Origin: Sinohyriopsis cumingii
Taxonomy: Eukaryota > Mollusca > Bivalvia > Unionida > Unionidae
Reading direction: 5' to 3'
Length of the DNA: 64,000 bases
Assembly: GCA_028554795.2 (NCBI GenBank)
Contig: CM068826.1
Coordinates: forward strand, 106,857,602-106,921,601
Shown here: in pieces, positions 18,026 through 34,836 of the stretch
Numbering within the stretch: position 1 is the stretch's first letter
How the letters are laid out: every line of letters starts with the position of its first letter
The notes under the pieces: generated by a model
What the model saw: the letters and a program-made list of their open reading frames with translations, nothing else
The model's database searches: none
What the model was told of the DNA's origin: nothing
Program-made: the position numbers and the translations under genes

Positions 18026-18338
18026 AGCAGCAGAGGGGGCGAACAGACCGAAACTATTTTCACAATAAACCCTTTCACGGAAACTTTTCCCGATAGAGGG
18101 CTTATTTCGACAAATAAACCCTTCTATTCAGAATACAGGACAAAAAAAAATGTCCTTGAGAAATGCTTCGCATTTCCGGAAATGCTTTGTATTTCCGCTG
18201 ATATAACGCGAGTTACTTCAATAAATCCGACTCGTATCCGACATAATTTCCACGGTGAGGTATCATCGAAAAATCAGGTGTAGTTTGCGCCCCCTCTGCT
18301 GCTCTACGAAATGAGTTTCCAAGAAAACATTTTTATGT
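18026..18338 (+). repeat. left terminal inverted repeat (313 bp)
   Basis: Matches the reverse complement of 34524-34836 with one difference seen by eye (18116). It contains two GAAATGC-type palindromes (18160-18176, 18178-18196) and an AGGACA-A7-TGTCCT hairpin (18137-18156). The terminal 16 bases AGCAGCAGAGGGGGCG recur inverted at 18288-18303, so 18026-18303 is itself bounded by short inverted ends. Confidence 0.95.
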
Positions 18339-18368
18339 TAACGGAATTAAATCATTGATAAATAAATA

Positions 18369-19688
18369 ATGGCAAATATCGGAGAAGCACTCACAACTAG
18401 ATTGGCACGACAACGACTAGCCGCGATTAAAAAATTTATTCCTGTCCGTGATTCCGTTAAAGAAAAATTAAAAGCAAGACAAGAAGCGCGAGTTGAGTTT
18501 GCAACATCTGCGGAGGAATTATTTAAGCCTATTACAGCAGCTACTGGTGAAGTTAAAACTGCAATTGTAGGAAAACCTGATCCTGCTGACCCTACCAAAA
18601 CAAAACGAGGGTTACTTCAAGCAATAGAAGAACTTAAACAGCAACAGGCAGATGAAGGTGCTGTAGTTGATCCAGGTGCCGCCGGAGTAGTGACAGTTGC
18701 TAAGGAAACATTTATTAATAAATTTACCGAAGATGGTATTACTGATATAAAAAATATTCCACTTACTAGCGTGGATGAGCTTAGGGAGTTTTCTGCTTGG
18801 ATTGTCTTAAATTATCCTAACCGGCAAGAATTTCTAAAACCAGGAGCTGCCTCGGGTATGACCCTGAATGATTGGAGGGATTATGTTTACAAAGTAAACC
18901 GAGGTATTTCTCGAATATCTAAAATTGATGATACCTATAATTTTATAAAAACTGGCGTAATTGGGGTTAATAAGGAACTAAGAGACCAACAAATGAAGGC
19001 AAGGGAAAGGGAAAGGCAGGCAAAAATACAGGAAATGGAAATGAAAAAGCAGGAAAGGGAGGAAGAAAAGAAGAAAAAAATACAGGAAAAAGAAATGAAA
19101 AAACAGTCAAAACTGCAGGAGAAGAGACCACCAGCTCTAAAAATAGACCCCGCAATGACACTGCCTGATCCAGTGCCTGAATTTTCATCGCGTGAACAAA
19201 TGGGGGCTAGTGCTCCCGATGATGATTTTACCACTCCTGTTTCGTCCATCCCCCCAAATATATCAGAAAAAAGAAAAAAATTAGAGGGGGAACTAGCCAA
19301 TTTAAATGATATATTAAGAGAATTAAACGATGAAATAGAAGAACAAAAAACATTGAAGGGTACTTCTGCTAAAATGGTTTTATCAGATAAAATAGCTCAG
19401 AAAAATGATGTAATTTCTGATATTAAAAGGGTACAAAAGGAAATAAGGAAAATAGGAAAAGGTTACACTGGTCGCGGATATAACAACCACATCTGTCCTG
19501 ACAATATCGTCAATGACGTATCACGGCTAGAAGTTCTCATCGGAGGAAAACGTGCCGGAAACAACTCTCCGGAAATTATAAATGAAGCCGCAGATATCTG
19601 TCAGAGACTATTTCAGCGTGGCATTATGGATATCGGCGTTTACCGGGGACTCATTGATGAACTCGCAGACGGTTACCACAGCGACTAG
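18369..19688 (+). CDS. conserved Maverick protein with central coiled coil, function unknown
   Basis: 439 residues starting at the ATG in AAATAAATAATGG just inside the left TIR. The N-terminal 190 residues are mixed and probably globular. Residues about 205-255 are a very highly charged K/E/R/Q/M stretch (repeats of KxxEMKKQ) predicted to be a long helix or coiled coil, with a second coiled coil near 298-355. The last 60 residues hold a compact block with L-x-V-L-I-G-G-K-x-A-G-N-N-S, then I-N-E-A..I and GIMDIGVYR. I recall a similar C-terminal block in unnamed proteins of other invertebrate Polintons (from memory, not searched). As first gene of the virion module it may be structural or scaffolding; this is inference. 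Confidence 0.75.
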   Translation: MANIGEALTTRLARQRLAAIKKFIPVRDSVKEKLKARQEARVEFATSAEELFKPITAATGEVKTAIVGKPDPADPTKTKRGLLQAIEELKQQQADEGAVVDPGAAGVVTVAKETFINKFTEDGITDIKNIPLTSVDELREFSAWIVLNYPNRQEFLKPGAASGMTLNDWRDYVYKVNRGISRISKIDDTYNFIKTGVIGVNKELRDQQMKARERERQAKIQEMEMKKQEREEEKKKKIQEKEMKKQSKLQEKRPPALKIDPAMTLPDPVPEFSSREQMGASAPDDDFTTPVSSIPPNISEKRKKLEGELANLNDILRELNDEIEEQKTLKGTSAKMVLSDKIAQKNDVISDIKRVQKEIRKIGKGYTGRGYNNHICPDNIVNDVSRLEVLIGGKRAGNNSPEIINEAADICQRLFQRGIMDIGVYRGLIDELADGYHSD

Positions 19689-19721
19689 TAAATTTAGTTA
19701 GAGAAACAATAATTAAATAAA

Positions 19722-20180
19722 ATGATACTACACGATTCTTTTCGCAGACCAAGAAGTGTCAGAGTAGTAAACTCACGATTACCAGTATACGAGGTTGTTT
19801 ACGGAGATGGAGTCGGTGATGTTGTTAGGGATTTAGTCACAAGAATCGCTCCGAAAGCTGGACCGTTAGTAAAACAATTCGCGATGAAAGCTGCTGATGT
19901 TGTCAAGGATAAAGCCATTGGCACTGTTGGTAGTCTTGCCGGAAAAGCATTTCAATCAATTAAGGATCGACTAGCACAGCTGATACAAAAAAAAACCCCA
20001 ATTAAGAGGCCCGCGCCAGTAAAACTACCATCCACTGAAGTTATGCCGGCAAATGTTAGTAGCGTAGTAAATAAGGCCGTAAATCAGAAATTAGCTGAGA
20101 TCGCAACAGCGGGAATTACCTCCAAAGCGTTGCAAGATAGTGTAACTGCTAATTTGATAGCTGGTAGTGGTTTCCGGTGA
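19722..20180 (+). CDS. small basic protein, candidate membrane-active minor virion protein
   Basis: 152 residues; the start is the ATG in AATTAAATAAAATGA. It lies 33 bases after the first gene and just before the capsid gene. After YEVVYGDGVGD comes a basic amphipathic stretch (residues about 33-90) rich in A, K, V and L, then a KKTPIKRPAPVK linker and a second helical region ending in a GSGFR tail. Position next to the major capsid gene and the basic/amphipathic composition resemble accessory virion proteins such as adenovirus pVI or pX, but I see no diagnostic motif. Function is inferred only from context. Confidence 0.65.
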   Translation: MILHDSFRRPRSVRVVNSRLPVYEVVYGDGVGDVVRDLVTRIAPKAGPLVKQFAMKAADVVKDKAIGTVGSLAGKAFQSIKDRLAQLIQKKTPIKRPAPVKLPSTEVMPANVSSVVNKAVNQKLAEIATAGITSKALQDSVTANLIAGSGFR

Positions 20181-20217
20181 CGATAACATTTTAATTAGAT
20201 CATCACGAATAATAATA

Positions 20218-21558
20218 ATGTTTGTGCGAAAATCCAATGATGCATTTGATATGTCCAAACCAGTACTTAAAGATGATTCTGTACGTGATTTTCAATATTA
20301 TTCTTATGAAGCACGTAATCCTAACCAACGGGGAAGAATTGAACTACAGGTCCAGGATACAAGCAGATACTTCTTGCCCGCTGAGGCCTTCATCGAAGTT
20401 GAAGGTAGGTTTTTAAAGAATGATAACACTAACTACGGAATCGGCGACCGAGTTGGATTTGTTAACAACGGCATCATGGCGTTATTTAAATCCGCTATTT
20501 ATATGATAGATGGAAAAGAAATTGAAACAATTCATGATAACGTCGATGTTGCCACAACAATTCTCGGGTTGGCGAGATACTCGGATGATTACACCAGATC
20601 AGCCGGACCATCAATGATGTTTGCAAAGGATGTAACCGACAGCCCCGAGAACAGGAATGTAACAATGAATGCTGGTGGTACCGAAGTTGCATCGATGAAC
20701 GAAAATTTTAATTTGGGTTTTGCAACACGTAGATCGATGTTAAGTGGAGATGAAGAGTTCTCAGGTGTGATTCCATTGTCTCACATCTTTGGATTCTGCA
20801 GAGATGTTCAAAAGGTTATATTCGGTGCCAAACACACAGTTATACTTGTGCGAAAACCTGATGATAATGACGCTATCTGGCGAGATGCTGCTGTTGCCGC
20901 TGGTCAGGTAATACTAACTAAACTGTGGTTGTGGATGCCAGTGTTGTCTCCGTCAATCACCGAAGAACAACGACTGTTGTCTTTTATGGACACGGGTGGT
21001 AAATCACTGCTATCCTGGAAAACAACAACCACAGACGTTATTCAGGGTGATCACGGCGGGTTGTTTACATGGCATATATCATCGCAACAAGGAGTATCAG
21101 CACCACGACATATTTTCATTGCATTTCAATACCGTGCTAGAATAAGTGACCAGACAAGAACTCCAATGGTATTTGATACACTTGGAGTTTCTGAAGTTTC
21201 GTTGAGAATAAATGGGCATCAGGAGCCATCTGAGGATATATTAATAGATTTCGAACATCATCGTGTCGCACGCGCGTATCATCGTCTGATGTCATTTATG
21301 GGGCGCGACCTTAATGTAGACACTGGCCTGCAAATATCACAGCGAGACTTTATGAGTTTATATCCGATTTATTACTTTTCGCTGGAACATCTTGATCTGG
21401 TTAAACAATCTGTTGTCGACCTGCATTTCCGAGCTCGTGTAGGTGCTCCTGCTGGTGGTTATAGAGCGATTGCTGTCATACTCTCCGATAAAGCAATGCT
21501 ACTTGAAGGTGTTGGCGGACGAATGAGAGTTATTGACGCTCCAGTAGAAAACATGTAA
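20218..21558 (+). CDS. MCP: probable major capsid protein (double jelly-roll type)
   Basis: 446 residues from the ATG in GAATAATAATAATGT; a longer reading would need a GTG start and is rejected. The protein is beta-rich without signal peptide or membrane segment. Landmarks include FQYYSYEARNPNQRGRIEL near the start, VNNGIMALFKSAIYMIDGKEI around residues 85-105, the IPLSHIFGFCRDVQKVIFG block near 185-205, and a C-terminal LYPIYYFSLE segment. The VNN-I-LF-I-Y-G-IE and PL-HIFGF patterns are those of a capsid-module protein family present in many invertebrate Mavericks (recalled, not searched). It is shorter than typical Polinton capsid proteins. The double jelly-roll fold is inferred from family and context. 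Confidence 0.72.
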   Translation: MFVRKSNDAFDMSKPVLKDDSVRDFQYYSYEARNPNQRGRIELQVQDTSRYFLPAEAFIEVEGRFLKNDNTNYGIGDRVGFVNNGIMALFKSAIYMIDGKEIETIHDNVDVATTILGLARYSDDYTRSAGPSMMFAKDVTDSPENRNVTMNAGGTEVASMNENFNLGFATRRSMLSGDEEFSGVIPLSHIFGFCRDVQKVIFGAKHTVILVRKPDDNDAIWRDAAVAAGQVILTKLWLWMPVLSPSITEEQRLLSFMDTGGKSLLSWKTTTTDVIQGDHGGLFTWHISSQQGVSAPRHIFIAFQYRARISDQTRTPMVFDTLGVSEVSLRINGHQEPSEDILIDFEHHRVARAYHRLMSFMGRDLNVDTGLQISQRDFMSLYPIYYFSLEHLDLVKQSVVDLHFRARVGAPAGGYRAIAVILSDKAMLLEGVGGRMRVIDAPVENM

Positions 21559-21583
21559 CAATTAGATTAGTTTCTGAAATATA

Positions 21584-22042
21584 ATGTCATACAGTCATGT
21601 TAATGTCACCTTGACTTCCGGTCAAACAAAGAAATTGCAATCGAAACACGCAAGCACGTGCGGGACATCAATAACGTTAAAACGAGATCAACTTGGTAGT
21701 GGTCCAAACAAATTGTCATTGACGGCCACTCAGCTTAAACATTTTAATAAGGCGTTAACAGCAAAAACCGGTATCCGCCTTGATTTCTCTGCTGCAGCTA
21801 TCAAGGACATGACTAAAACCGGTGGAATATTTCCCCTCATCCCAATACTAGCTGCTGCAATTCCAGGATTACTCGGCGCAGCGGCAAAAGCTGCAGCGTT
21901 AGGTACAGTTGGAACCGCAGCTGGAATGGCACTAAAGAAAGCAATCGGAAAGGGATACAAGAAAAAAAAGGGGAGATCCACTCGCGGATCAGGTCTAAGA
22001 CTACCAGGAACTCCACCATCATGGTATCCAAAAAAATTCTAA
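21584..22042 (+). CDS. pX-like core/membrane-associated protein
   Basis: 152 residues starting at ATATAATGTC. The N-terminal half has two copies of an L-x-x-x-Q/A-h-K-x-h-x-K-A pattern (LSLTATQLKHFNKAL, then GIRLDFSAAAIKDM). Then GGIFPLIPILAAAIPGLLG and an Ala/Gly-rich hydrophobic run to residue ~122, and a very basic GKGYKKKKGR tail with a GSGLRLPG motif. This layout, repeat then GG-hydrophobic then basic GSG-L tail, is typical of the small pX-like proteins found beside protease and capsid genes in Mavericks and adintoviruses. Such proteins probably bind packaged DNA or the particle's inner surface. Its last 22 bases overlap the protease gene. Confidence 0.75.
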   Translation: MSYSHVNVTLTSGQTKKLQSKHASTCGTSITLKRDQLGSGPNKLSLTATQLKHFNKALTAKTGIRLDFSAAAIKDMTKTGGIFPLIPILAAAIPGLLGAAAKAAALGTVGTAAGMALKKAIGKGYKKKKGRSTRGSGLRLPGTPPSWYPKKF

Positions 22043-22497
22043 CGCCGTTGAGCAATTTTGATTTACTCGATGCTGTTAAAAAATTGCGTATAAAACATTT
22101 CAGAGGAGTATTTATGCGAGATCAATTACCGACGCGGCCGAATAATCCAGAAACTGGCATTATCAATCTCGACAACAAAGATGGTCCGGGAACTCACTGG
22201 GTTGCTTACGCGATCGATCCACGTGGAATTATCTATTTCGATTCGTACGGTTTAGCACCGCCAACTGAGTTTCTCAGGTATGTCCGCGGAGTGCCTCGCA
22301 CTCTCAACAGCAGATTTTCTAAGAAATCCAAAGGATTTTCAATTCCAGTGTGGCAGTCGACGCTACCAACACAAACATTAATTGATCCGCCCATTTGTGG
22401 AAACGAGGTTTTAAATGTTCTTGATGCAATCTCAAGAAATCCAGCAACGTCTCCGCATCGAGTAGTGTATGAATATACCGCATCGAGAAATGCTTAG
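22021..22497 (+). CDS. PRO: adenain-like cysteine protease (maturation protease)
   Basis: 158 residues, C5/Ulp1 fold family. The catalytic set is visible in order: GTHWVAY gives His59, YFDSYG gives Asp74, WQS (Gln112) or TQT (Gln117) is the oxyanion glutamine, and PICGNEV gives Cys126. Spacing is close to adenovirus protease. The residues after the cysteine (CGNEVLNVL) differ from the common CG-Y/F-C pattern. Expected role: cleavage of capsid precursor proteins during particle maturation. It overlaps the pX-like gene by 22 nt and, unlike its neighbours, lacks the AT-rich leader, suggesting coupled expression. Its stop codon TAG lies inside a palindrome (22487-22503), so the last residues SRNA are palindrome-encoded. 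Confidence 0.9.
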   Translation: MVSKKILTPLSNFDLLDAVKKLRIKHFRGVFMRDQLPTRPNNPETGIINLDNKDGPGTHWVAYAIDPRGIIYFDSYGLAPPTEFLRYVRGVPRTLNSRFSKKSKGFSIPVWQSTLPTQTLIDPPICGNEVLNVLDAISRNPATSPHRVVYEYTASRNA

Positions 22498-22536
22498 CAT
22501 TTTCATGCTCGCATTTGAAAAACAGCAATAAGAATA

Positions 22537-23805
22537 ATGGTGGATATTTACGGAAGACCTTTCACAAGAAAAGTCAAACCTGGCACAGATGTTGATCTCT
22601 CAAAATATGCGACACGAGATGAAGTCGATAATCTTTTGAATATAGCTGGAGTTGACCCAGATGAAGTTGCTATTTTCCAAGACAAGCAAGGAAAACTAAG
22701 AACGAGCAACATTAAGTTCAATGACATAATTCGCAGAGTTCTTGGAGCTACCAAGGATAATTTCGTTGCATTTAGTGATGGCGGCCGGATCAAGGACTCG
22801 AACATATCAATCGCAAGCATCAAAGACAGTATTGATAAAGGTGTTGATAAATGTGTGAAAAAAACCGGCGACGTAATGACCGGCGAACTCAGCATGAATG
22901 GAAACAAAATAACCGTACTCAGAGATCCAGCCTCGAACGACGATGCAGCAAACAAACAATACGTCGACGCGCAGTACAAACTCGTTGTTGACCTAGTCAG
23001 CGACAGAGTAATAAAATCCGGCGACGTAATGACCGGCGGACTTGACATGAGCGGCAACAAAATAACCGCGTTAGCAAATCCCGAATCCGACCAGGATGCG
23101 TCAAACAAACAATACGTGGACATCGTCAACGGTAAACTAAATACGCTGCGTGCAGAGTATGATGTTCACGTGGGCGCGTTTACAAGACTTCGAAGAAACT
23201 TCTCAAAAACTGATGAGACCGTGGATAAGTTCTTTGGGGATCCTCCAGTCGTCGACACGAAACTTTCTGAAATCATACCAAATCTTACTAATAACGCCAA
23301 CGATATCAATAAGATTAATACCCGGTTAGGTGTAGTCAGAACGGAAAAAAGTTTTTCAGATCAAGTTCAGATAATAGAAAATAACATTAACACGATCAAA
23401 CAAACACAGCAGAATATAGTATCGGGTATTCCTGAGATCGTTAACAAAACCAGTCTGATTAAAGTCCCCACTGGAGTTACTTCCGGGCATATCACCAACA
23501 TCGTATTCACGGTATCATCGGGATTCGCAACATGGTCACGACAAAATAACAACACTATCAAATATACAGCAACAGCCACCGGTGTTTACAGGTTGTCTGT
23601 GTTTTCAGCCGCTAAATTTGAAATCTTCACAACATATCCTTGGAGACATTCCACCGATAAGTATTCCGGGGTTTGCACTGTAATACTAAACAGCGGAACC
23701 GAGGAAACATTTATGCTTGAAGCCGCCGACGATACTTTAACAGCAACATCTTACTGGTTTTGTTTGGAATTCGTCGCTGCAACGCCTCAATTGGTTACCG
23801 CGTAA
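22537..23805 (+). CDS. fibre/spike protein with phage tail-fibre-type stem repeats
   Basis: 422 residues; start in AAGAATAATGG. The N-terminal part (1-105) could anchor to the capsid. Residues 109-144 and 160-195 are two copies of a stem motif: K-x-G-D-V-M-T-G, then M-x-G-N-K-I-T, then P-x-S-x-x-D-A-x-N-K-Q-Y-V-D. This matches the collar/stem repeats of bacteriophage tail fibres, in which trimers form a beta-rich stem. The two copies are also very similar as DNA. A helical/coiled region (about 200-310) follows, then a beta-rich C-terminal head (320-422) with many S/T and aromatic residues, the likely receptor-binding part. Placement between protease and penton genes fits a vertex spike. Confidence 0.8.
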   Translation: MVDIYGRPFTRKVKPGTDVDLSKYATRDEVDNLLNIAGVDPDEVAIFQDKQGKLRTSNIKFNDIIRRVLGATKDNFVAFSDGGRIKDSNISIASIKDSIDKGVDKCVKKTGDVMTGELSMNGNKITVLRDPASNDDAANKQYVDAQYKLVVDLVSDRVIKSGDVMTGGLDMSGNKITALANPESDQDASNKQYVDIVNGKLNTLRAEYDVHVGAFTRLRRNFSKTDETVDKFFGDPPVVDTKLSEIIPNLTNNANDINKINTRLGVVRTEKSFSDQVQIIENNINTIKQTQQNIVSGIPEIVNKTSLIKVPTGVTSGHITNIVFTVSSGFATWSRQNNNTIKYTATATGVYRLSVFSAAKFEIFTTYPWRHSTDKYSGVCTVILNSGTEETFMLEAADDTLTATSYWFCLEFVAATPQLVTA

Positions 23806-23808
23806 TTA

Positions 23809-23826
23809 AAAATCGCCGGCGATTTT
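23809..23826. promoter_or_regulatory. 18-bp perfect palindrome before the membrane-protein gene
   Basis: AAAATCGCCGGCGATTTT, ending 8 bases before the start codon at 23835 and just after the fibre stop codon. It could be a terminator-like hairpin, an operator, or a member of the element's palindrome family. Confidence 0.6.
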
Positions 23827-23834: not shown

Positions 23835-24440
23835 ATGTCAACGTTGAAATCCGAAGGATTTCCAGATGCTCAACAATATCGATATAATCAAGTCCGTGAG
23901 TGGCAATCTGAGTTAAAAACTGTCATCGAAGTAACCAGTCAAAAAGTAAAAAAATACCGCAGACGCATAACAGTGTTAGACGTTATGGTTTATTCAGTAT
24001 CCGCCGTTGTTGCATCCGCGGGAGTAATACTATCAGCGGTCACTCCAGTGACTGCAGTAGTCGCTGCCACGATCTCTGTTTCCGCTGCTACAGCAACAGC
24101 AGGAGTTTTCGGCATCATAGCAAAAAAAATATCCTCGTGCGCGGTCACAAAATTACACGATTACACGACAAAATTAAATACAGCCACGACCGCATATCAG
24201 AAATTATCATCGCTGATATCATCATCGTTAGACGCGCAATCCAGCGACGCTGCGTTGATATCAGATTCTGAATTCAAACTAATGTCAGATGTGTACAATG
24301 ACTATTTGAAAACTAAACAAATAAATAATGTCACTGATGGCAACGCCACAGGAACTGCTTCAGCAAATAGTCACAAACACAACACCGGTAAGGACCACAA
24401 TGATCTCAGTGTCCTCGACGACACCAGAATTCAGCATTAA
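23835..24440 (+). CDS. two-pass membrane protein of the virion module
   Basis: 201 residues; start in TTAAATAATAATGT. A basic helical N-terminus (about 20-46, with KKYRRR) is followed by two adjoining hydrophobic segments (about 47-69 and 73-95, Ala/Val/Ser/Thr-rich with VTPVTAV as the turn). After this comes IIAKKI and a long helical domain (100-165) with a KLNTATTAYQKLSSLI heptad-like run and an acidic SDSEFKLMSDVYNDYLK segment. This SLATT-like layout of two transmembrane segments followed by a helical tail recurs next to penton genes of invertebrate Mavericks, as I recall. It may be a particle-associated or pore-like membrane protein; the function is unproven. The last 113 bases overlap the penton gene in another frame. 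Confidence 0.7.
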   Translation: MSTLKSEGFPDAQQYRYNQVREWQSELKTVIEVTSQKVKKYRRRITVLDVMVYSVSAVVASAGVILSAVTPVTAVVAATISVSAATATAGVFGIIAKKISSCAVTKLHDYTTKLNTATTAYQKLSSLISSSLDAQSSDAALISDSEFKLMSDVYNDYLKTKQINNVTDGNATGTASANSHKHNTGKDHNDLSVLDDTRIQH

Positions 24441-25815
24441 TTTTCCAACTCCAATTGCCGTGAACGAAATCGCGTTGTCGAAGCTCAGTGCGTATCACAG
24501 CTGGCCTAATGTCAGAGCGGCATCATTTTCCGGTCAGCAGCCAAATAATTCGTTTGTGTTTTCGTGGAAAACCAAAGCCGACTCTGACGAATTCGACTGG
24601 GATACAATTACGCTACCCACTGGGAGTTATCAGATCGAAGAAATCAACGCGGAGATACAACGCCAAATAAAACGAATCACCGGCAAGGAAGCCAAAATAT
24701 CTGTGACCGCGCACGAACCAACGCTGTCTGCGGTCATTGAAATCTCAACACCGGGATACGCCGTGGATATTTATAGCAGCTCAATCCGAACAGTATTAGG
24801 ATGGCCACAAGAACGACCCGAGGTTGAACCGGGTCCACCGCCACCATCGAAGTCGGATTTCGAGACCACGAAGGAAGAACTACACGACCTCGTGTACGGC
24901 GAGTATTTATTATTTTCAGATCGATTACGATCAGGCCAAGCCTGGTTTTCAACATCAGATAAAGTTCCCTTGGATATAATAGGGGCAGCTTTTTTTGAGG
25001 GGTATGGAGGCCGGGATTACCGGCCAGAAGATATAGAAGCTCATTTTTTTAATCCGATCAAACAAGCACATAAACAACAGCTAGACCTGTTGCGGGGACA
25101 TTTCCAAGATTATATCTCTGATATAACAAAACCAGGAACTGGAAACGCTAGCGTTTCTGCAAGCAGTTCTCGGAATGCTTTGCATTCTCGCACGAACATT
25201 ATCACCACCATAGAAAAACTAAACAAACTCGCATCCACGATGGAATTTATGAATCAAAAAGTAATTCAACATCTACTGGATCTCAAGGGCGATTATGGAA
25301 ACCGAAAAAGATCGAATTTTGCAACCCTATTTGGTATTCCCGTGAAGGATATTTCAGATTTTAAACTTCCTGGATATAACGTACACACACTAAGAAAATC
25401 AGTCCAAGATCTCATCGAGGAATCTTTCAAAGATATTTCTGCCGCGTATGCGAAAATAAAACCACAACCTGTTATTTTAAGACACGACAACAGTACAGCA
25501 TCCGATGGCAGACACATCTCACCCGGGATCGTAAATATCACAGATGTTATTGCGGTCAATCTTGTATGTGACGTCATTGACGGTAGCTACAGCGCATCAG
25601 ATAATACTACGGCGATGCAGGGGTTTATCCTGTATACGTTCACACCAAAAGACCCCCCTGGTTTTCTGATTGTGCAAGAACCAATCAATGTGGTCTATCT
25701 GCGGTGTAATAATCCGTGGTTGTCAACGATAAATTTTAAACTCGTCGACCAACGGGGGGGGTTGTTGGACCTGCGTGGCGAGACTGTCTCCGTGAACTTA
25801 CTGGTGAAATCCTGA
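24328..25815 (+). CDS. mCP: penton-like minor capsid protein with a central insertion
   Basis: 495 residues; start in AAATAAATAATGT inside the end of the preceding gene (another ATG lies 12 bases on). The N-terminal third reads as a single jelly roll: SINFPTPIAVNEIALSKL, then ITLPTGSYQIEEINAEI around residue 92-108, then TVLGWP. The C-terminal third has VIDGSYSA, PGFLIVQEPINVVYLRC and WLSTINFKLVDQRGGLLDLRG, the terminal strands seen in Maverick penton proteins. Between them, about 170-375, is a largely helical insertion with no recognised fold. Two palindromes (25142-25157, 25173-25187) encode GNASVS and RNALHS in this insertion. The protein would cap the five-fold vertices that carry the fibre. 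Confidence 0.8.
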   Translation: MSLMATPQELLQQIVTNTTPVRTTMISVSSTTPEFSINFPTPIAVNEIALSKLSAYHSWPNVRAASFSGQQPNNSFVFSWKTKADSDEFDWDTITLPTGSYQIEEINAEIQRQIKRITGKEAKISVTAHEPTLSAVIEISTPGYAVDIYSSSIRTVLGWPQERPEVEPGPPPPSKSDFETTKEELHDLVYGEYLLFSDRLRSGQAWFSTSDKVPLDIIGAAFFEGYGGRDYRPEDIEAHFFNPIKQAHKQQLDLLRGHFQDYISDITKPGTGNASVSASSSRNALHSRTNIITTIEKLNKLASTMEFMNQKVIQHLLDLKGDYGNRKRSNFATLFGIPVKDISDFKLPGYNVHTLRKSVQDLIEESFKDISAAYAKIKPQPVILRHDNSTASDGRHISPGIVNITDVIAVNLVCDVIDGSYSASDNTTAMQGFILYTFTPKDPPGFLIVQEPINVVYLRCNNPWLSTINFKLVDQRGGLLDLRGETVSVNLLVKS

Positions 25816-26899: not shown

Positions 26900-26931
26900 A
26901 TTATTATATATTTTTATATTTTTAAATGCAT

Positions 26932-26963
26932 GAAAAATGCTTTGCATTTCTTGTCCAAGGGAC
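26932..26963. repeat. pair of palindromes upstream of the 138-aa gene
   Basis: AAATGC-TTT-GCATTT at 26935-26949, followed by GTCC-AAG-GGAC at 26953-26963. Same families as elsewhere in the element; sits in the promoter side of the minus-strand gene. Confidence 0.75.
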
Positions 26964-26986
26964 TTCTCTGCTAGCATCACCAAAAA

Positions 26987-27860: not shown

Positions 27861-28433
27861 TTACACACTCGTGGAGGAGTTATCGTCGTTTGTGTCAGCG
27901 ATAAGAGTTATATAACAGAATGAAATCTTCTGTTTGAGCTTCTTTGAAAATGCTGTTTTGCGGATCCCAGCTGCGACACGCTGTACAGCAGGTGGACAAA
28001 TACCGAAATACCTACCGGCGGAGTATATTGACTGGAATACAATTTCTTCACCTGCGTTTATAGATTTAATAGCTCTTCTTGCAACTGTTTTACAACACCC
28101 TGTGTTACCCAGTAGGCAGTTTTTGCTCTGAGTGACCACACGAAGATTGTTTATAGAGTTATCAAGTATGTTACCGTTAATGTGATCAATGACAAACCCC
28201 TTAGGGATCACTCCGTTAAAAACCTCATAGACGAAACGATGACATAAATACCTCTTTGAGCACGTGGCAGTAAATCTTAAATAACCAGCATTATCAACTG
28301 TACCAACTGGTCGTCTTCGCGTGCAGTGTCGCACCGTGCCATCTCGGTTTGCCTCATAATTTGGAATAGTTGGATGTGCAACAAATTCTTGTTCGGGAAC
28401 AAATTCTTGTTCGGGGACGAATTCTTGATTCAT
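27861..28433 (-). CDS. HNH homing-type endonuclease with NUMOD-like domain
   Basis: 190 residues; start in TAGTATAATGAA. It opens with a tandem octapeptide-like repeat (FVPEQE three times, last diverged), encoded by repeated DNA. Residues ~20-60 resemble the NUMOD4 substrate-binding module. Then RFVYEVFNGVIPKGFVIDHI and NGNILDNSINNLRVVTQSKN give the HNH_3 nuclease core (D-H in the VIDHINGN turn and the NNLR..T..N end). A C-terminal ~40 residues with IYSAGRYFGICPPAVQRVA match a NUMOD1-type helix-turn-helix. Such enzymes cut DNA and promote spread of the sequence that carries them. Free-standing here, beside a second HNH domain fused to the polymerase. Confidence 0.88.
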   Translation of the reverse strand: MNQEFVPEQEFVPEQEFVAHPTIPNYEANRDGTVRHCTRRRPVGTVDNAGYLRFTATCSKRYLCHRFVYEVFNGVIPKGFVIDHINGNILDNSINNLRVVTQSKNCLLGNTGCCKTVARRAIKSINAGEEIVFQSIYSAGRYFGICPPAVQRVAAGIRKTAFSKKLKQKISFCYITLIADTNDDNSSTSV

Positions 28434-28461
28434 TATACTATAAGCAAATCATTTGTCTAAT

Positions 28462-28743
28462 TCATAATTTGTCTGAAAACTTATTTATGTAATCACGCTC
28501 CGAGAACGTGTTCGAGTCTGGATTTTTTTTATCATAATACCATTTTAGTTCTCGATAGCGTTTCCCCCCACACGCTGAACATAATTGCGTTTTTCCTCGT
28601 ACTCCAATGCCGCATCTGATACACGGTATCGGTCCTAGACTCCCACCGCGGACCTGTTGAGCATGTTGTCCACAGTATTCGTGTCTGCATGGTTTGCTAC
28701 ACGGCGCTGATGAATTTAGTTTAATCCACTTGCATTGGTGCAT
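28462..28743 (-). CDS. small Cys-rich zinc-binding protein
   Basis: 93 residues; start in AATATATTATGC. Cysteines fall in pairs: MHQCKWIK, SAPCSKPC, HEYCGQH, IPCIRCGIG and LCSACGG, consistent with at least two zinc-binding knuckles, followed by a basic RYRELKWYYDKK helix. Similar short Cys-rich proteins occur in other invertebrate Mavericks as I recall. Possible roles are nucleic-acid binding or transcription control. It is divergently arranged with the polymerase gene, only 42 bases apart. Confidence 0.7.
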   Translation of the reverse strand: MHQCKWIKLNSSAPCSKPCRHEYCGQHAQQVRGGSLGPIPCIRCGIGVRGKTQLCSACGGKRYRELKWYYDKKNPDSNTFSERDYINKFSDKL

Positions 28744-28785: not shown

Positions 28786-31700
28786 ATGAGTTTTGAAAGA
28801 CTATCCAGAATAAAACCTGGAAATCTCCAATTTCCCCGAGGTCGATTCGATCTTGACCGGTTAACCGGTGATGTACGACGACGAGAACTCGCAGCGGTAA
28901 TTGGTGTTATCAAGAACGCCAAAGAAGAGTTTCGTCGTGATGGTGCCGCACATGTGTGGTCTTCGTATAAAATCATTTCTGAAAATGCCATCATTGATGG
29001 TACCATCAACGATACAATCGCGTCGAACATAATTGGGTATCTCGATGATAAAAAATATTTCATTCAGATAAAATTTATCGTTGGCGTCGACGACGCCGAA
29101 ACAGGTGAAACAACGTGGATTATCAGAGACAAACTAGACCCTATTCTTGATGCCCGGCGGGGGAAAACCGTCGTCGTAACCAAAGACTCAAACCCGGGAG
29201 TACTTGTTGGGATTGATACACCGTATTATGCCAGAGCGTATCCTGTGACCGCAGTCATTTATGGAATTTATCCGATGAAGAAACCACGCGTTGATAAACT
29301 CGCCCCGATGAAGATGTCAGAGTCATTGATAAAATCCACAGGGTTGAATTGTGTAGCCGAGCGAGTAATGGAACATTTTAAAAATGCAATGCGAGGAAAC
29401 GGCCTAACACCGCTAAGACAGACTAAAATAGCAGCGTGGGCGGCAAAAGTAGTGGATGAAGGAGCGTCAATAAATGATGTTGCCGAGCTCGAACGATTAC
29501 TAAAATTTCCTATAACGGTTTCATCGTTGACCGGTGAGGTATTGTACAAGAGTAAATATGATTCCCGTGGAGCACCAATAACTATTATCGATCATAACAG
29601 TCACGCCTGGACTGACTCGGTTAGGATATTTCCTCGAGATCGTGTTGTAAAGTATTATCCGGAATTGGAAAATGCTAGCATGGGAACCACTAGTGGTGAA
29701 ACTCGAAGAGTTTCTGGAAATGCAAGCATTTCTATGTTTGATTTTATTTATCAGATAAGTAAAACCGATCCAGTGTCGGTGTGGTTATTCCGAAGTGACC
29801 TCGAGGGAGAGTTTGATCAGTTTGTGAAACCCAACGGGGAGGTATACAGAACGGCGGCATTACATCACGAAATGAAAAAACTCGCAGAAAAATATCATGC
29901 GACGAACACTGATACGTTACTGACGCAGTGTTTTACTGTCCCGGGTGTTGTCACGCATATAGCCCGAGAACGAAATTCATGGAGACCAACCCCGAAGAGT
30001 TTTCTCGAGGATATTCAACAGAGCTGTATCGAATACGGACACGGTGGTTTGTGGAATACCCAGTATGATCACCGCGATATGATATCCGTGGATATGACGG
30101 CGTTTTATCCAGGAAGTTTTCTTGGGCGGGGGGAATGTAGTGAGTATTTTAAACGGTTTGGTCATATTACAAGCTCGATGACAAGAGTTGCCATAAACGG
30201 ACCATTGCCTGATTTTGACCTGACCGGGGTTGCTTGTGTGTCGTCGTTTAAACTCGCTACGGGTTTACATCCTGTGTGTTATGCTTGGTTTGGTAAACAT
30301 TTCGTTGAGAAGCGATGGGCACCAATAGTGTTATTGCGATACATGCTTGACAGTCGAATACTGCTGTCGCTGACGGTCAGTACCGCGATTATATGCTACT
30401 GTCGTCAAACCGAAGTTTGGTTGCCAACTCCGCAAGTCATCGAAGAAACTAATAATTTCCAGGAGTATCCAGAATCTTTTATCGACACTATCATCGAAAG
30501 AACTCCTAAAATTTCCCAAACTGATGAAAGCGCCGCAAAAGATCTAGGACGAAGAATAATAGGAAAATTTACTCAAGGTGGAGCGTATGATCATAAACTA
30601 CATCATAGTCGATTAATCATGGACGAGGCCGAATTGGATCTTATTGTCGCTGATGCCGCCACGAATAATACGTTTTGTACCCGCGAAGATGTGTTTCTGT
30701 CAAACGGGGAAAAATTAGGAACTGTTTTTAGTTATATCGACGGAGAATCATCTCAGTACACACATTTGAGATCTTCGATGCTAGCTTATGTATCAATAAA
30801 CCTATTGTCGATGATTAATAGGTTTCCCGTTGACGCAGTGAGAGTTGCAACGGATTCATTCTATATCGATAAAAAACACTTAGCGGTGTTGAATAAGGTT
30901 ATACCGAATGATCCATCGTGGGGTTCATGGAGAATAAAAAATGAAATGTTGCATGGATATTGTGAATCAGCTGATGTTGAAATCGAGGATGAATATCGCG
31001 GCGCAGAAATATCTGGGAAATTTTCAATTTCTACGACAACTTCGCTGCCGCCGGTGCACGATCCTGTTGTGAGACATAGAACAGTTTATCTCAACGGGGC
31101 TGGTGGTTCCGGTAAGACAACTCGCGCGATAGAATTATTTAGAAACTCTGACATGATTGTGCTAACACCCACACATAGACTTGCCAGGGAGATGCGACAA
31201 CGGGATGTTAACGCGTGCACGTATCACAGTTTTTTCAAATACAGCGGCGGCACATGGACTCCTACGCGAATGGGAACGAAATATATCCCTGGAATAATCA
31301 TCTGGGATGAGATAGACACTGTGCCGTTGGATACATTAAAACAGTTTCTGGATTGGTTGCTAAAGAAAAATACCGCAGTTGTTATGTGCGGCGATCATGG
31401 TCAACCACCGCCATTTACAGGTGAATCTCCACACACGTGGCTGAAAACTTTTGTAGATTATTATGAGGAAATAACTAACGATGTTAGAGCACTCGATGAA
31501 ACGCTGAAAGAGTTTAAGGCGTTGATCAGGCTACAAACCAATAAAGTCCAGTGTGAGATAATGCGTGAAATAATTCCAGAGACTTCGCTGAGCGACTTTT
31601 GGGAAACGTGGAAACCAGGTGATTTAATTGTGGCAAGTAGAAAGATAGTCAGGGACACACTTCAGCAGCGGTTATTTCAGTTACATCAGAAGAAATTTCC

Positions 31701-32340
31701 AATGCTGGTAGTGCCGTTGTGTTATAGACCAGCTGATACGCGATTGCAGAATACCGACGTTGATATACCTGGGAGATCGGAAAAACAGAATTTAGTATTA
31801 AATGATATTGTCACAGTTGATATTGATGCTGTTGAACAGGCACTGAAAATGAGCAAATCCCCGTGGACGCTAGGATACGCTATGACCATCCACAGTTCGC
31901 AGGGACTAACTATTTCAGATACAACAGTTTGGATTGTTGATGATCGCATCGAGTGGTCAAATTTAGTTTATTTAGCCGTGTCAAGAGTAAGAAGGATAGG
32001 TCAGTTACGAAGAATTGTATTAGATGATGTTATCAACGACAGCATCAACAGATCAATCGCTGATGATACAATAAGAAAGAAATTAGCCGGTTACAAACAG
32101 AGCGACAAAAAAAATGGCAACGAGTTTGATCTCGACGAAACATTTATTATACAATTACAACAGCAGCAGAATAATCACTGCGCGAGTTGTAATTGTTTAT
32201 TGCTGTGGCAGTATTCGAAAAATAATCCAAGGCAATTTACCGTAGATAGAATAGATAGCAGTCGCGGTCATACGCGTGAAAATGTAATGCTGACCTGTCT
32301 TGAGTGTAATCGACGCAGAGGTGCTGCTGCAGTTATTTAA
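28786..32340 (+). CDS. PolB: fused B-family DNA polymerase - SF1 helicase - HNH nuclease
   Basis: 1184 residues; start in AATTATAATAATGA. Polymerase part: motif A SVDMTAFYPG (Asp436) and motif C RVATDSFYI (Asp690), with KFTQGG and the RSSMLAYVSIN block between. A protein-primed type is inferred from the element class; I could not place a 3'-5' exonuclease with confidence in residues 1-400. Helicase part: Walker A GAGGSGKTTR (771-780), TPTHRLA, Walker B IIIWDEID (837-844), VVMCGDHGQPPP, then TIHSSQGLT and YLAVSRV near 1034-1068, of Pif1/RecD-like SF1 type. The C-terminal 60 residues form a zinc HNH nuclease: CASC (1132-1135), FTVDRID, GHTRENVMLTC and CLEC. Residues about 296-316 are encoded by four consecutive palindromes. 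The 3' end overlaps the integrase gene by 8 bases. Confidence 0.9.
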   Translation: MSFERLSRIKPGNLQFPRGRFDLDRLTGDVRRRELAAVIGVIKNAKEEFRRDGAAHVWSSYKIISENAIIDGTINDTIASNIIGYLDDKKYFIQIKFIVGVDDAETGETTWIIRDKLDPILDARRGKTVVVTKDSNPGVLVGIDTPYYARAYPVTAVIYGIYPMKKPRVDKLAPMKMSESLIKSTGLNCVAERVMEHFKNAMRGNGLTPLRQTKIAAWAAKVVDEGASINDVAELERLLKFPITVSSLTGEVLYKSKYDSRGAPITIIDHNSHAWTDSVRIFPRDRVVKYYPELENASMGTTSGETRRVSGNASISMFDFIYQISKTDPVSVWLFRSDLEGEFDQFVKPNGEVYRTAALHHEMKKLAEKYHATNTDTLLTQCFTVPGVVTHIARERNSWRPTPKSFLEDIQQSCIEYGHGGLWNTQYDHRDMISVDMTAFYPGSFLGRGECSEYFKRFGHITSSMTRVAINGPLPDFDLTGVACVSSFKLATGLHPVCYAWFGKHFVEKRWAPIVLLRYMLDSRILLSLTVSTAIICYCRQTEVWLPTPQVIEETNNFQEYPESFIDTIIERTPKISQTDESAAKDLGRRIIGKFTQGGAYDHKLHHSRLIMDEAELDLIVADAATNNTFCTREDVFLSNGEKLGTVFSYIDGESSQYTHLRSSMLAYVSINLLSMINRFPVDAVRVATDSFYIDKKHLAVLNKVIPNDPSWGSWRIKNEMLHGYCESADVEIEDEYRGAEISGKFSISTTTSLPPVHDPVVRHRTVYLNGAGGSGKTTRAIELFRNSDMIVLTPTHRLAREMRQRDVNACTYHSFFKYSGGTWTPTRMGTKYIPGIIIWDEIDTVPLDTLKQFLDWLLKKNTAVVMCGDHGQPPPFTGESPHTWLKTFVDYYEEITNDVRALDETLKEFKALIRLQTNKVQCEIMREIIPETSLSDFWETWKPGDLIVASRKIVRDTLQQRLFQLHQKKFPMLVVPLCYRPADTRLQNTDVDIPGRSEKQNLVLNDIVTVDIDAVEQALKMSKSPWTLGYAMTIHSSQGLTISDTTVWIVDDRIEWSNLVYLAVSRVRRIGQLRRIVLDDVINDSINRSIADDTIRKKLAGYKQSDKKNGNEFDLDETFIIQLQQQQNNHCASCNCLLLWQYSKNNPRQFTVDRIDSSRGHTRENVMLTCLECNRRRGAAAVI
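29672..29732. repeat. cluster of four palindromes inside the polymerase gene
   Basis: ATGCTAGCAT (29672-29681), ACCACTAGTGGT (29686-29697), GAAACTC-GAA-GAGTTTC (29698-29714) and GAAATGC-AA-GCATTTC (29717-29732) follow one another with 2-4 base gaps. They keep the reading frame and encode the low-complexity stretch ASMGTTSGETRRVSGNASIS. Confidence 0.9.
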
Positions 32341-33316
32341 GTGATCGAGGTGGTAATTGTGTATCCGTGGGAATCACCTGAAGTTGCTCGCGTTTAAATC
32401 CGCGTTGAGGAGCAGTCGAATCTAATCTGTAGATTGCGTTTCTCCCAGTTGATCTGGTTATGCTGGATATCTTGTGTGTGGTAACACTCCATATAGGATC
32501 AGTTGCCCTTTTTTTTCCTCCTTCGAGTTCGCCGGGTTCGTATAAATACCTAACGGTGACATTACCCAGCAACGGGGACGCTAGCGTCGTTGGCTGCGTT
32601 GAAACATGTCCGTGAATCACTTTAGTGATCGGGGGTATATATTTTTTTGTGATTGCATTTACAGGCCTCATGTTTGTTGTTCTGGTAATTTCATTATTCA
32701 GTGCGGCTATCACGTTTGGCAGTCTTGCAACCCATTCACGAGATCTCGTATCGTAAATGAATTCCCTCGCGTACTGGTATCCGAATAATCTCTCAGCGAG
32801 TGTTCTATTAAATCGCTCAACAATTGCCTGATCCCGATGAATTTCAGTATGTCCTCGTCGTATGGTAACGTTATGCTGCTTTGTCAGTGATGACACCGCG
32901 CCCTGAAATTCCTTGCCAGGATCAACTTGTAATAATCGTGGCCAGTTTAGAGGTCCTCGTTGATAAATTCGTTTAAACGCAGAGGCGACTTCGGACGCTG
33001 TTTTAGTCGCTAACGGTTCTGCTTCTTTGTATCTACTAGCAACATCAACTACTGTTAGCGCGTATTTGTATATTTTTCTGCGGACAGTATCATGAGGCAG
33101 GAATAGTATGTCAGCCTGATGAACTTCATTGGGGACGCTAACATCAAAATGTGCAAAGTTGATTTGTCGAGGTGGTGGTAGGTAGATTTGCCATATTGCT
33201 TGTTTTGACAGCCATTTTTTGGCAACCTCGCGTGTTACTGATGCCGCGTTGGCGAGTTTATTAATTGCTGAGTTACCTCTCCAGTATCCGATTGGGGAAT
33301 AATAAATCGCTTGCAT
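32333..33316 (-). CDS. INT: retroviral-type (RVE/DDE) integrase
   Basis: 327 residues; start in TAAATAAAAATGC. The catalytic core shows D69 (VHQADILFLP), D132 (LLQVDPGKEF) and E167 (AIVERFNRTLAERL), a D,D(34-35)E spacing typical of Maverick/retroviral integrases. The N-terminal ~50 residues lack a clear HHCC zinc finger. The C-terminal part (about 245-327) has a basic WSVTTHKISSI..YRLD segment compatible with an SH3-like DNA-binding fold; no chromodomain seen. It would join the TIR ends to target DNA and make the short duplication observed. A GACGCTAGCGTC palindrome (32577-32588) lies in its 3' part. Convergent with the polymerase gene. Confidence 0.93.
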   Translation of the reverse strand: MQAIYYSPIGYWRGNSAINKLANAASVTREVAKKWLSKQAIWQIYLPPPRQINFAHFDVSVPNEVHQADILFLPHDTVRRKIYKYALTVVDVASRYKEAEPLATKTASEVASAFKRIYQRGPLNWPRLLQVDPGKEFQGAVSSLTKQHNVTIRRGHTEIHRDQAIVERFNRTLAERLFGYQYAREFIYDTRSREWVARLPNVIAALNNEITRTTNMRPVNAITKKYIPPITKVIHGHVSTQPTTLASPLLGNVTVRYLYEPGELEGGKKRATDPIWSVTTHKISSITRSTGRNAIYRLDSTAPQRGFKREQLQVIPTDTQLPPRSLK

Positions 33317-33326
33317 TTTTATTTAA

Positions 33327-33835
33327 TTATCCAGCGCCTAATGCTAATTTAGATTTCATCGCTGATCTTATTAACCAATTAGCGAGTGACTCCTTAAATG
33401 ATTTATTTTTTATGGCGCTTAGTGCATGAATTAATTTCACATCCGCGATATGCCTGTCTTGCAGATCTTTACTTCGATAAGCAACATCATGCATGTGACA
33501 CGCTGCGTCGATAGCGTTTATCGGATACTCTCCCGGTTTTGGTTTAGATTGTTCATCAAGTCTGATATCTAGTCGTGTCCCTGGACCGCAGTAATTGTAT
33601 CCTGGGAGATGTTTTTCTCCGGGATATTTAGCCCAAGGGGTACCTGGAAGTCGTCCGAGGGTTGCTGCGATGTCACCTCCGCTGACTTTGTCAGGCTTTT
33701 TTTTTGAAATCTAAATTTTTTTGTGCCACATCGCGCACACTTACCAGAAAGTGCTTGTCTGTTATTTTTTGTTGTAATGGTTGTTAGATCATTCGTAGGG
33801 GTTTGTGCCTTACACTTCACACAATATAGATCCAT
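33327..33835 (-). pseudogene. zinc-ribbon / phospholipase A2 gene split at an A9 tract
   Basis: The first frame (33569-33835, 88 residues) opens with MDLYCVKCKAQT and CARCGTKKFRF, a four-cysteine zinc ribbon (C5, C8, C33, C36). A second frame, -1 relative to it, is open from about 33707 down to its stop at 33327-33329 and encodes a parvovirus-VP1-type phospholipase A2 domain: YNYCGPGTRLD (calcium loop) and IDAACHMHDVAYRS (His-Asp dyad), then a helical basic C-terminus. The frames meet at nine As on the coding strand (plus-strand T run 33697-33705). Fusion of these two domains is usual in invertebrate Mavericks as I recall, so this is one gene disrupted or recoded at the A tract. The PLA2 would help particles cross membranes. 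Confidence 0.75.
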
Positions 33836-33857
33836 AATTATTATTCCTTATATACAA
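33836..33857. promoter_or_regulatory. 22-bp divergent promoter between zinc-ribbon/PLA2 and ATPase
   Basis: AATTATTATTCCTTATATACAA without its ends separates two divergent start codons; TATATA lies inside. As with the other divergent gap, both genes begin directly after AT-only sequence. Confidence 0.6.
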
Positions 33858-34529
33858 ATGGAGATCACTGATTTTTCTGCGACGCGAAGGAAAGAACCAG
33901 TCAAGCATAATTCCGTGCTACCAAATTCTATCAGAATGATCATCATAGGACCGTCAGGATCAGGTAAAACACAGCTGTTGCTGAACATGATAATGAAGTG
34001 GATGAAATGGGACAAACTATACTTGATAGCTCCGTCTGTGGATGATCAACGTTGTTATGATGTTATAAAAGATTTTAATGAGAGTGCAAAAGCGCTGAGT
34101 GAAGACGGCGAGGATGTTGTTGAATTTATAACTGATATTGAAGAAGCTCCGTCCGTGGAAGACCTTAACGGGGAAATAAATAACCTAGTAGTGTATGATG
34201 ATGTGATGCTGGACAAGCAAAAAAATCCTGCAAGAATATTTTCACGAGGTCGTCATAAAAACACTGATGTGATTTATGTTACTCAGCGTTATACACAAAT
34301 TCCAAAAGTAATCAGGGATAACTGTAATCTTCTTGCGGTGTTTAATGGAGTTGATGTTCACACGCTGAGAAATATTCATCAAACCTGGTGTAGCGGCGAT
34401 ATGGATATTAATAAGTTTAAGAATTTCTTTAGTCGCGCTCAAAGAAACCAGCACGGATTTGTGACAATAAATTTACACGACCCGCGGACACGATACCGCG
34501 TCGGCCTTGATACACTATTTGCGACATAA
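33858..34529 (+). CDS. ATP: A32/FtsK-type genome-packaging ATPase
   Basis: 223 residues from the ATG in TATATACAAATGG; the open frame extends 45 codons further upstream into the antisense of the zinc-ribbon gene, which I reject. Walker A is GPSGSGKT (31-38), Walker B LVVYDD (110-115) preceded by a hydrophobic strand, and a TQRYTQIPKVIRDN motif follows (about 142-155) as in A32-like ATPases, where a Q/N senses nucleotide. It would pump the element's DNA into preformed capsids. Last gene before the right TIR; stop codon at 34527-34529 lies just inside the TIR (34524-34836). Confidence 0.92.
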   Translation: MEITDFSATRRKEPVKHNSVLPNSIRMIIIGPSGSGKTQLLLNMIMKWMKWDKLYLIAPSVDDQRCYDVIKDFNESAKALSEDGEDVVEFITDIEEAPSVEDLNGEINNLVVYDDVMLDKQKNPARIFSRGRHKNTDVIYVTQRYTQIPKVIRDNCNLLAVFNGVDVHTLRNIHQTWCSGDMDINKFKNFFSRAQRNQHGFVTINLHDPRTRYRVGLDTLFAT

Positions 34530-34836
34530 AAATGTTTTCTTGGAAACTCATTTCGTAGAGCAGCAGAGGGGGCGCAAACTACACCTGATTTTTCGATGAT
34601 ACCTCACCGTGGAAATTATGTCGGATACGAGTCGGATTTATTGAAGTAACTCGCGTTATATCAGCGGAAATACAAAGCATTTCCGGAAATGCGAAGCATT
34701 TCTCAAGGACATTTTTTTTTGTCCTGTATTCTGAATAGAAGGGTTAATTTGTCGAAATAAGCCCTCTATCGGGAAAAGTTTCCGTGAAAGGGTTTATTGT
34801 GAAAATAGTTTCGGTCTGTTCGCCCCCTCTGCTGCT
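34524..34836 (-). repeat. right terminal inverted repeat (313 bp)
   Basis: Inverted copy of 18026-18338 with one mismatch seen. Carries the same palindromes at 34686-34702 and 34666-34684 and an internal inverted copy of the terminal 16 bases at 34559-34574. The first six bases include the ATPase stop codon. Confidence 0.95.

Follow-up and report, generated by a model that had tools for sequence, protein, structure and literature searches.

Why should a single transposon carry many short palindromes that share an outer GAA...TTC frame but differ in the stem? The question is raised by a 64,000-nt stretch from the bivalve Sinohyriopsis cumingii (GenBank assembly GCA_028554795.2, contig CM068826.1, positions 106,857,602 to 106,921,601 of the forward strand; hereafter the window, in whose own coordinates all positions are given), which contains a Maverick/Polinton-like element at 18026-34836. 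Comparison of the element with close copies from the same genome revealed that the stem varies yet remains self-complementary, that modules are gained or lost, stacked, nested and swapped, and that hybrid arms exist. We are inclined, with some reserve, to regard the palindromes as copies of a very short mobile hairpin module, which propagates in an expanding Maverick/Polinton family via template switching during replication.

The original prediction had proposed such a GAA...TTC palindrome family, and counting bears it out. Perfect palindromes of the form GAA-N4-N3-N4'-TTC (7-bp arms, 3-base loop) occur eight times in the element (18137-34702), namely at 18160, 23846, 25926, 25959, 26401, 26532, 29698 and 34686, and not once in the 47,170 bp of flanks, while 200 dinucleotide shuffles of the element gave a mean of 0.02 and a maximum of 1. 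All eight have a C-G closing pair and a loop that reads GAA, AAA or AAG on one of the two strands. The 2-base-loop version is present twice in the element (25142, 29717) and once in the right flank (35008, GAAATAA-AG-TTATTTC). The impression that the host flanks are free of palindromes therefore holds for the 3-base-loop class in 47 kb, but not for this 2-base-loop one. In a looser class (C-G-closed, stem of at least 6 bp, 2-3-base loop), 26 members in the 16.8-kb element compare with four in the 47 kb of flank inside the window, 15 in 90 kb of host (nine arbitrary 10-kb stretches) and 17 in 110 kb of another Polinton family (eleven 10-kb stretches: ten picked by a match to PF03175 and the arbitrary stretch L084, which was moved there for its common motifs). 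Per 10 kb this makes 15.5 for the element against 0.6 and 1.0 for the flanks on either side and about 1.6 for the host and other-Polinton stretches; the comparison with flank, host and shuffles suggested by the original prediction came out unequal, with the element far higher. GAA-framed members of the looser class were found neither in the window flanks nor in the host stretches or the other Polinton family. When the frame GAA-N3-C-N3-G-N3-TTC was sought without requiring complementarity, the two N3 proved complementary in 8 of 10 element occurrences, with four different stems; the frame is missing from the window flanks, and elsewhere its N3 are complementary in 0 of 1 occurrence in 90 kb of host DNA and 0 of 10 in 110 kb of the other Polinton family. 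Folding of nine stretches as single strands gave z values from -0.2 to -5.1 with DNA parameters and from 0.0 to -4.1 with RNA parameters. Chance or composition as the source of the palindromes is ruled out by the shuffles and by the density relative to flanks and host.

The element and its hairpin sites are as follows; rows are aligned copies and include the window.

18026-34836, plus strand: Maverick/Polinton-type element of 16,811 bp, assigned from sequence, terminal inverted repeats (TIRs) and capsid, integrase and ATPase matches
18160-18195, minus strand: left-TIR hairpin pair, GAAATGC-TTC-GCATTTC and then GAAATGC-TTT-GTATTTC (one mismatch)
22284-22307, minus strand: in-frame 24-bp hairpin insert in the protease-like gene, GAGTGC-CTC-GCACTC, in 7 of 11 rows
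22323-22342, plus strand: in-frame 20-bp hairpin insert in the protease-like gene, GAAATCC-AAA-GGATTTTC, in 2 of 11 rows
22483-22513, no strand given: cluster of variable hairpins where the protease-like gene ends, with several forms in siblings
23809-23826, no strand given: intergenic palindrome AAAATCGCCGGCGATTTT, with a both-sided change AAAATTAC...GTAATTTT in copy L128 and a half-changed form in copy L124
23846-23862, plus strand: hairpin GAAATCC-GAA-GGATTTC (perfect GAAATCCGAAGGATTTC), in 7 of 11 rows
25142-25190, no strand given: nested and stacked hairpins in gene 24328-25815, GAAACGC-TA-GCGTTTC within a GAACTGC hairpin, then GAATGC-TTT-GCATTC
25926-25942, plus strand: hairpin GAAATGC-AAA-GCATTTC, in 4 of 9 rows
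25957-25977, plus strand: exact 21-bp module TGGAAGTCCAAAGGACTTCTC, one of the 357 exact places of its pattern
26301-26316, plus strand: hairpin GAAGTC-TAAG-GACTTC, constant (9 of 9 rows), holding the stop codon of open reading frame (ORF) 26028-26309
26324-26338, plus strand: hairpin AAACTC-GAA-GAGTTT, in 8 of 9 rows
26401-26417, minus strand: hairpin GAAACTC-TTT-GAGTTTC, in 4 of 9 rows
26532-26548, plus strand: hairpin GAAATGC-AAG-GCATTTC in ORF 26483-26989 (minus strand), constant (8 of 8 covering rows)
26935-26949, minus strand: hairpin AAATGC-TTT-GCATTT in ORF 26483-26989 (minus strand)
29675-29732, plus strand: hairpin cluster of the polymerase-helicase gene, hypervariable, with 21 rows showing five lengths that all keep the frame
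30498-30520, plus strand: hairpin truncated in the window; the full hairpin TGGAAATAAAATTTCC is present in two siblings and the site is empty in six
34667-34702, plus strand: right-TIR hairpin pair, the second being the insert [CCGGAAATGCGAAGCATTTC]

The palindrome family listed in the original prediction is real, with some corrections to the list. Its entry at 26301 has a 6-bp stem and a 4-base loop, those at 26324 and 26935 have 6-bp stems, and the list was incomplete, as 25173, 22289, 22324 and 22488 are further members. It placed palindromes in both TIRs, in spacers and in six coding regions, and indeed six ORFs hold or overlap hairpins: 22021-22497, 23835-24440, 24328-25815, 26483-26989 (minus strand), 28786-32340 and 32333-33316 (minus strand). 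The last is counted for the predicted palindrome at 32577, which overlaps this ORF but need not belong to the mobile family.

Siblings were retrieved with 800 bp of the polymerase gene (window 29300-30100) as query. The best 40 of 4,636 candidates are the window and 39 others, which share 95-99% identity with the window over these 800 bp; 20 of the 39 were compared at the polymerase-gene site and 4 to 20 at other sites, and for the 25.8-26.5 kb stretch 8 of 12 siblings cover it (nine rows with the window). Among close copies a hairpin can be present, absent, stacked, nested or replaced by one of another stem. Within the cluster at 29675-29732 the interval lengths of 80, 83, 92, 101 and 104 are equal modulo 3 and the flanks are nearly invariant; 14 of 21 rows have the hairpin GGAAATGC(A/C)AGCATTTC, five have none and two carry GAGTGC-AAG-GCACTC in its place. 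Among 46 protein homologues, four end before this site, two are gapped around it, P0001 shows the peptide GNASIS, P0003 and P0004 have other inserts, P0002 has RNASIS elsewhere, and the rest have none. Since some rows and most protein homologues lack it, the sequence is an optional insertion, and the empty homologues argue for gain of the hairpin in the polymerase gene. In gene 24328-25815 copy L117 is empty and L116 has one hairpin, TGGAACTGCAAGCAGTTCTC, whereas the window has the L116 hairpin with a second one inserted into it and a third behind; L110 and L112 show a divergent form without hairpin. The 12 protein homologues of this gene align poorly at the site and lend it weak support. The right-TIR insert [CCGGAAATGCGAAGCATTTC] is found in the window and four siblings and is missing, with identical flanks, in six, a count that omits 10 of the 20 TIR siblings, which are of another TIR type. 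A further TIR site is either empty or occupied by a GGAATC hairpin (seven siblings) or by the palindrome GCGCGTTAACGCGC (five siblings). The 25.8-26.5 kb stretch contains a clean 21-bp difference, TTCTC[TGGAAATGCAAAGCATTTCTC]ATG; an additional 21-bp module follows site 26301 immediately in four siblings, and one sibling has another hairpin alongside site 26532. At 23846 the remaining rows show the near-palindromes GAAATCCGAAACATTTC (2 of 11) and GAAATCTGAAACATTTC (2 of 11), which differ from the perfect form by substitutions only. Alignment of related copies, as the original prediction had proposed, thus found most tested positions variable and stems swapped, but 26301 and 26532 constant in all covering sibling rows. 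The suggestion that the palindromes reflect a propagating hairpin or selection on structure is supported by the presence or absence of hairpins among close copies and the exchange of stems at one site; the former favours propagation.

The same picture emerged from indels of 12-60 bp that were picked by pairwise alignment alone, without regard to palindromes, and reduced to distinct, left-normalised alleles. A perfect stem of at least 6 bp is present in 36 of the 39 alleles and one of at least 5 bp in 38; the longest hairpin-bearing allele in this range measures 54 bp. When each allele was compared with 200 length-matched pieces from hairpin-poor parts of the element, at most 2.5% of the pieces reached the same stem for 38 alleles, and 89% did so for the remaining one, a 40-bp TIR allele. 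Two of the stretches had been selected for having few or no family hairpins in the window. In 30140-31660 (nine rows) the single indel of at least 12 bp is a hairpin, and in 32335-34369 (seven rows) all three such indels are hairpins and share one site, where the integrase gene begins. The capsid stretch, with 73 distinct gaps of at least 12 bp that are mostly not hairpins, was left out of the counts because three of its four siblings are merely 80-84% identical. By hand count, the length is a multiple of three in 17 of 17 coding alleles (seven in the protease-like gene including its end, five in gene 24328, ORF 26028-26309 and ORF 26483-26989 (minus strand), and five in the polymerase-helicase gene) versus 5 of 22 non-coding ones. 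The in-frame length of all coding indels suggests ongoing selection on the genes at the time of insertion. The encoded peptides differ (GNASIS, SRNALHS, ETRRVS, SGESARHS). Across the 39 alleles there is neither a target duplication of fixed length nor a constant target; TTCTC- or TTTC-like repeats border several inserts, as in TTCTC[TGGAAATGCAAAGCAT]TTCTC.

The module is common in the genome at large. Its commonest unit has 21 bp, TGGAA-N3-C-(A/G)AA-G-N3-TTCTC, with looser relatives of about 15-24 bp. The pattern TGGAANNNCRAAGNNNTTCTC, with N3 left free, matches 1,189 places genome-wide versus 8 for the reversed control, and the pattern TGGAARTCCAARGGAYTTCTC has 357 exact places against none for its reversed control. 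The places listed individually cover C1 and the first 41.6 Mb of C2 and number 100, or 118 over both patterns. Among these listed matches the N3 are complementary in 93 of 100 places, with a chance expectation of 1 in 64; their stems are ACT, GTC, ATG and ATT, and six of the seven non-complementary modules are hybrids of an ACT arm with an ATG arm. Eleven pairs of listed places lie exactly 21 bp apart, which sets the unit length at 21 bp and shows head-to-tail stacking. A 24-base polymerase tag (window 29761-29784) was found at 1,122 places with at most two mismatches (control 0). In the listed part, 14 of 16 exact tags have a module within 5 kb (0.08 expected), and, viewed from the modules, 31 of the 118 places have an exact tag no more than 5 kb away (0.08 expected). 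Listed modules that are isolated, i.e. with no other within 17 kb, are of a single type, TGGAAACTCAAAGAGTTTCTC, in 25 of 34 cases; these may belong to a second element family.

How could so small a unit spread? Movement would take place while the element replicates with single strands exposed, presumably by strand displacement. At a hairpin the polymerase would stall; its growing end would anneal to a short stretch of like sequence (TTCTC, TTTC) at a second hairpin, whether in that copy or in a different one, and the polymerase would copy this second module before returning. Fold-back copying within a hairpin would rewrite one arm from the other, so that hairpins stay perfect and new stems arise. 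Out-of-frame insertions in genes would be purged, and the module copies would then spread with the element and through recombination between copies; a dedicated enzyme would not be required. In favour of template switching are the TTCTC/TTTC-like repeats at inserts, the lack of a fixed target duplication, the hybrid arms, the grouped substitutions at 23846 and, at 23809, the both-sided change in L128 with its half-changed counterpart in L124. The states at these two sites match what quasipalindrome correction by template switching would give, with the direction of change unrooted. Arm homogenisation through template switching has been reported in yeast (PMC8604942). Such quasipalindrome correction, or short template-switch mutation, would account for arm homogenisation and loop inversion, but it acts at a resident inverted repeat and does not on its own account for one module at 1,189 places.

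Several observations weigh against this reading. Movement is deduced from end products in an unrooted comparison, which separates neither gain from loss per site nor the order of the substitutions at 23809 and 23846. The 39 alleles do not equal 39 independent events, and most stretches were selected for window hairpins. In stretch 26973-28700 (five rows, two of them partial) none of four indels of at least 12 bp belongs to the family, most being tandem-repeat steps. Microhomology amounts to 0 or 1 base at several inserts, e.g. [CCGCGGAGTGCCTCGCACTCTCAA] and [GACGTGGTTCACCACGCT], and several stems were found at one site only, so that not every insert has a visible donor. Two hairpins are invariant in every covering sibling row (26301 in 9 of 9, 26532 in 8 of 8). 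An exact polymerase tag is found within 13 kb of only 33 of the 118 listed module places, and some modules may sit outside this element family; since only exact tags were listed, the remaining modules may adjoin divergent copies, other elements or host DNA. Finally, the relative orientation of loop and flanks is not always the usual one.

The main rival sees in the modules true transposons that a hairpin-recognising enzyme (an HUH or other single-strand transposase or nuclease) of the host or another element would move, as in bacterial systems of the repetitive extragenic palindrome (REP)/IS200 type. Such an enzyme would fit the recurrent 21-bp unit with its conserved ends TGGAA and TTCTC, its C(RAA)G loop and its high copy number, and the element itself has an HNH ORF (27861-28433). 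Yet the 39 alleles lack both a target duplication of fixed length and a constant target, the stems are variable, and many inserts are unlike in length and flank; no HUH/IS200-type Pfam match was obtained in 13 element ORFs, the host genome not being part of that search. We therefore consider enzymatic transposition unlikely. An equally low likelihood attaches to the proposal that the hairpins are functional sites (for RNA 3'-end formation or processing, packaging or replication initiation), held by selection on structure and regained by recombination, with the variation reflecting site turnover. The constant hairpins at 26301 and 26532 fit this proposal best, several hairpins lie at gene ends, two hold stop codons (the 22483 region and 26301), each TIR has a hairpin pair, and structure is conserved over sequence. 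On the other hand, many hairpins lie within coding sequence, some siblings have no hairpin at most tested sites, and position and number per gene are not fixed. Terminator or polyadenylation hairpins were discounted as the only explanation, since many of the hairpins lie inside genes and are optional; N3 varies but stays complementary, and for this reason a protein-binding site with a fixed half-site was dropped as well.

Excision of transposons can leave palindromic remnants at variable sites, and the hairpins might be scars, end fragments that several ordinary inverted-repeat transposons (miniature inverted-repeat transposable elements, MITEs) left behind on excision or through internal loss. 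This is very unlikely: the sibling pieces, in which alleles of 12-60 bp reach 54 bp at most, contain no longer element with such ends (the whole genome was not searched for one), and scars would not be expected to show stacked 21-bp units or varying stems. Nor did the 39 alleles show the combination of TIRs with a fixed-length target duplication by which MITEs are recognised. Chance palindromes or assembly errors are practically negligible as an explanation, given that the counts greatly exceed those in the shuffles, in the background pieces, in the frame controls and for the reversed pattern, and that element copies occur on many contigs with different host flanks.

The element that houses the hairpins is, from its sequence, Maverick/Polinton-like. 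It has a double-jelly-roll capsid (PF21738, 1e-18), an A32-type ATPase (PF04665, 6e-14) and a retroviral-type rve integrase (PF00665, 2e-8; minus strand), all over the Pfam cut-off, together with TIRs that are 99.7% identical over the 313 bp compared and a short target duplication, CAGGA, as 5-bp direct repeats at 18021-18025 and 34837-34841. Polinton target duplications are usually given as about 6 bp. The protease-like gene is so called for a weak, below-threshold match to the adenovirus-type cysteine protease PF00770 (16.5 bits, cut-off 21.3). The 1184-aa ORF 28786-32340 matches helicase-type ATPase families only, and protein-primed family B DNA polymerase (PF03175) gave no Pfam match in it at E 0.01; polymerase-like motifs were read by eye in the N-terminal region, ahead of the helicase-type ATPase domain, and an HNH-like cysteine/histidine stretch at the C-terminal end. 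Its 46 protein homologues include ones from Elysia crispata and Gigaspora margarita, and the named matches among the 12 homologues of gene 24328-25815 come from Potamilus streckersoni and Sinanodonta woodiana. The HNH endonuclease ORF 27861-28433 begins with an 18-bp tandem repeat (EQEFVP) whose copy number differs among siblings, and ORF 22537-23805 has a T7 tail-fibre N-terminal-like match (PF03906, 28.5 bits, cut-off 25.2). The capsid side (19400-20880) shows 80-84% identity in three of four siblings (L167-L169) versus 98-99% on the polymerase side of the same copies, and judged from these values the sibling copies look like mosaics. In the other Polinton family of the genome, the palindrome TGTCAC-TT-GTGACA is present in ten of the eleven stretches (L067-L075, L084), without GAA-framed hairpins, and absent from L076. 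Relatives of the helicase and capsid proteins did not turn up in searches of viral contigs. Scanning such contigs for GGAAATGCNNNGCATTTC returned 58 stretches, among them an IMG/VR contig (L025) with nine GAA-framed 3-base-loop hairpins, several beside A- or T-rich runs; this contig looks like an unrelated phage.

Mobile mini-hairpins are on record for organelles and bacteria, the way in which the organelle ones move being unsettled (PMC2670323, PMC2800124, PMC10969869). Like the short palindromic repeats of Volvox carteri organelles, whose plastid units measure 14-79 nt with stems of 5-29 and loops of 3-5, the mussel modules are short selfish hairpins in several related classes, in both orientations, spread genome-wide and with an unsettled mechanism. 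The Volvox repeats reside in organelle DNA, are intergenic or intronic but for one rRNA module, and were judged inert in the nucleus (PMC2670323), whereas the mussel hairpins lie in a nuclear virus-like transposon, occur in frame in genes, have mostly a 21-bp unit and are polymorphic among the copies of one family. The double-hairpin elements (DHEs) of Allomyces and the hairpin elements (RHEs) of sponges are likewise often paired, optional between relatives and in some cases located in genes, and those of Allomyces insert without flanking duplications, as here. They are mitochondrial, however, the sponge ones being mostly intergenic or in rRNA and less often in protein genes, and the parts of these papers covered do not describe 21-bp head-to-tail stacking (PMC2800124, PMC7218506, PMC10085805). 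Thus many dispersed copies that are optional between relatives, as in organelle hairpins, are found here, but the copies in the window belong to a transposon whose contig measures 155 Mb, in a genome of 2.9 Gb, and not to an organelle. The module would work like the organelle hairpin elements without being filed as a member, a likeness drawn by description rather than by sequence comparison. The resemblance to Rickettsia palindromic elements noted in the original prediction stands insofar as palindromic inserts add in-frame peptides to unrelated genes; the Rickettsia elements are bacterial, about 150 bp long and each encode a conserved peptide, while the modules here have about 15-24 bp and varying peptides (PMC10969869). 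A full-text literature search, judged mostly from titles and abstract openings, found no account of such hairpins in Polintons.

A bolder version of the proposal, which we put forward only tentatively, is that of a minimal selfish replicon: a non-coding 21-bp hairpin in an animal nuclear virus-like transposon that would be copied to new sites by its parent's strand-displacement replication, with a stem free to mutate via fold-back repair, and that would steadily add in-frame peptides to the protease-like, polymerase-helicase and other genes. The large nuclear family, whose best 40 copies are 95-100% identical over 800 bp, allows insertion, stacking, hybrid and near-palindrome states to be read together, and because these states stand side by side in near-identical copies, the mechanism of movement is directly testable. 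The modules also provide a fast-changing marker to trace recombination among Polintons, and a route for short new peptides to enter virus-like polymerase and protease genes in frame.

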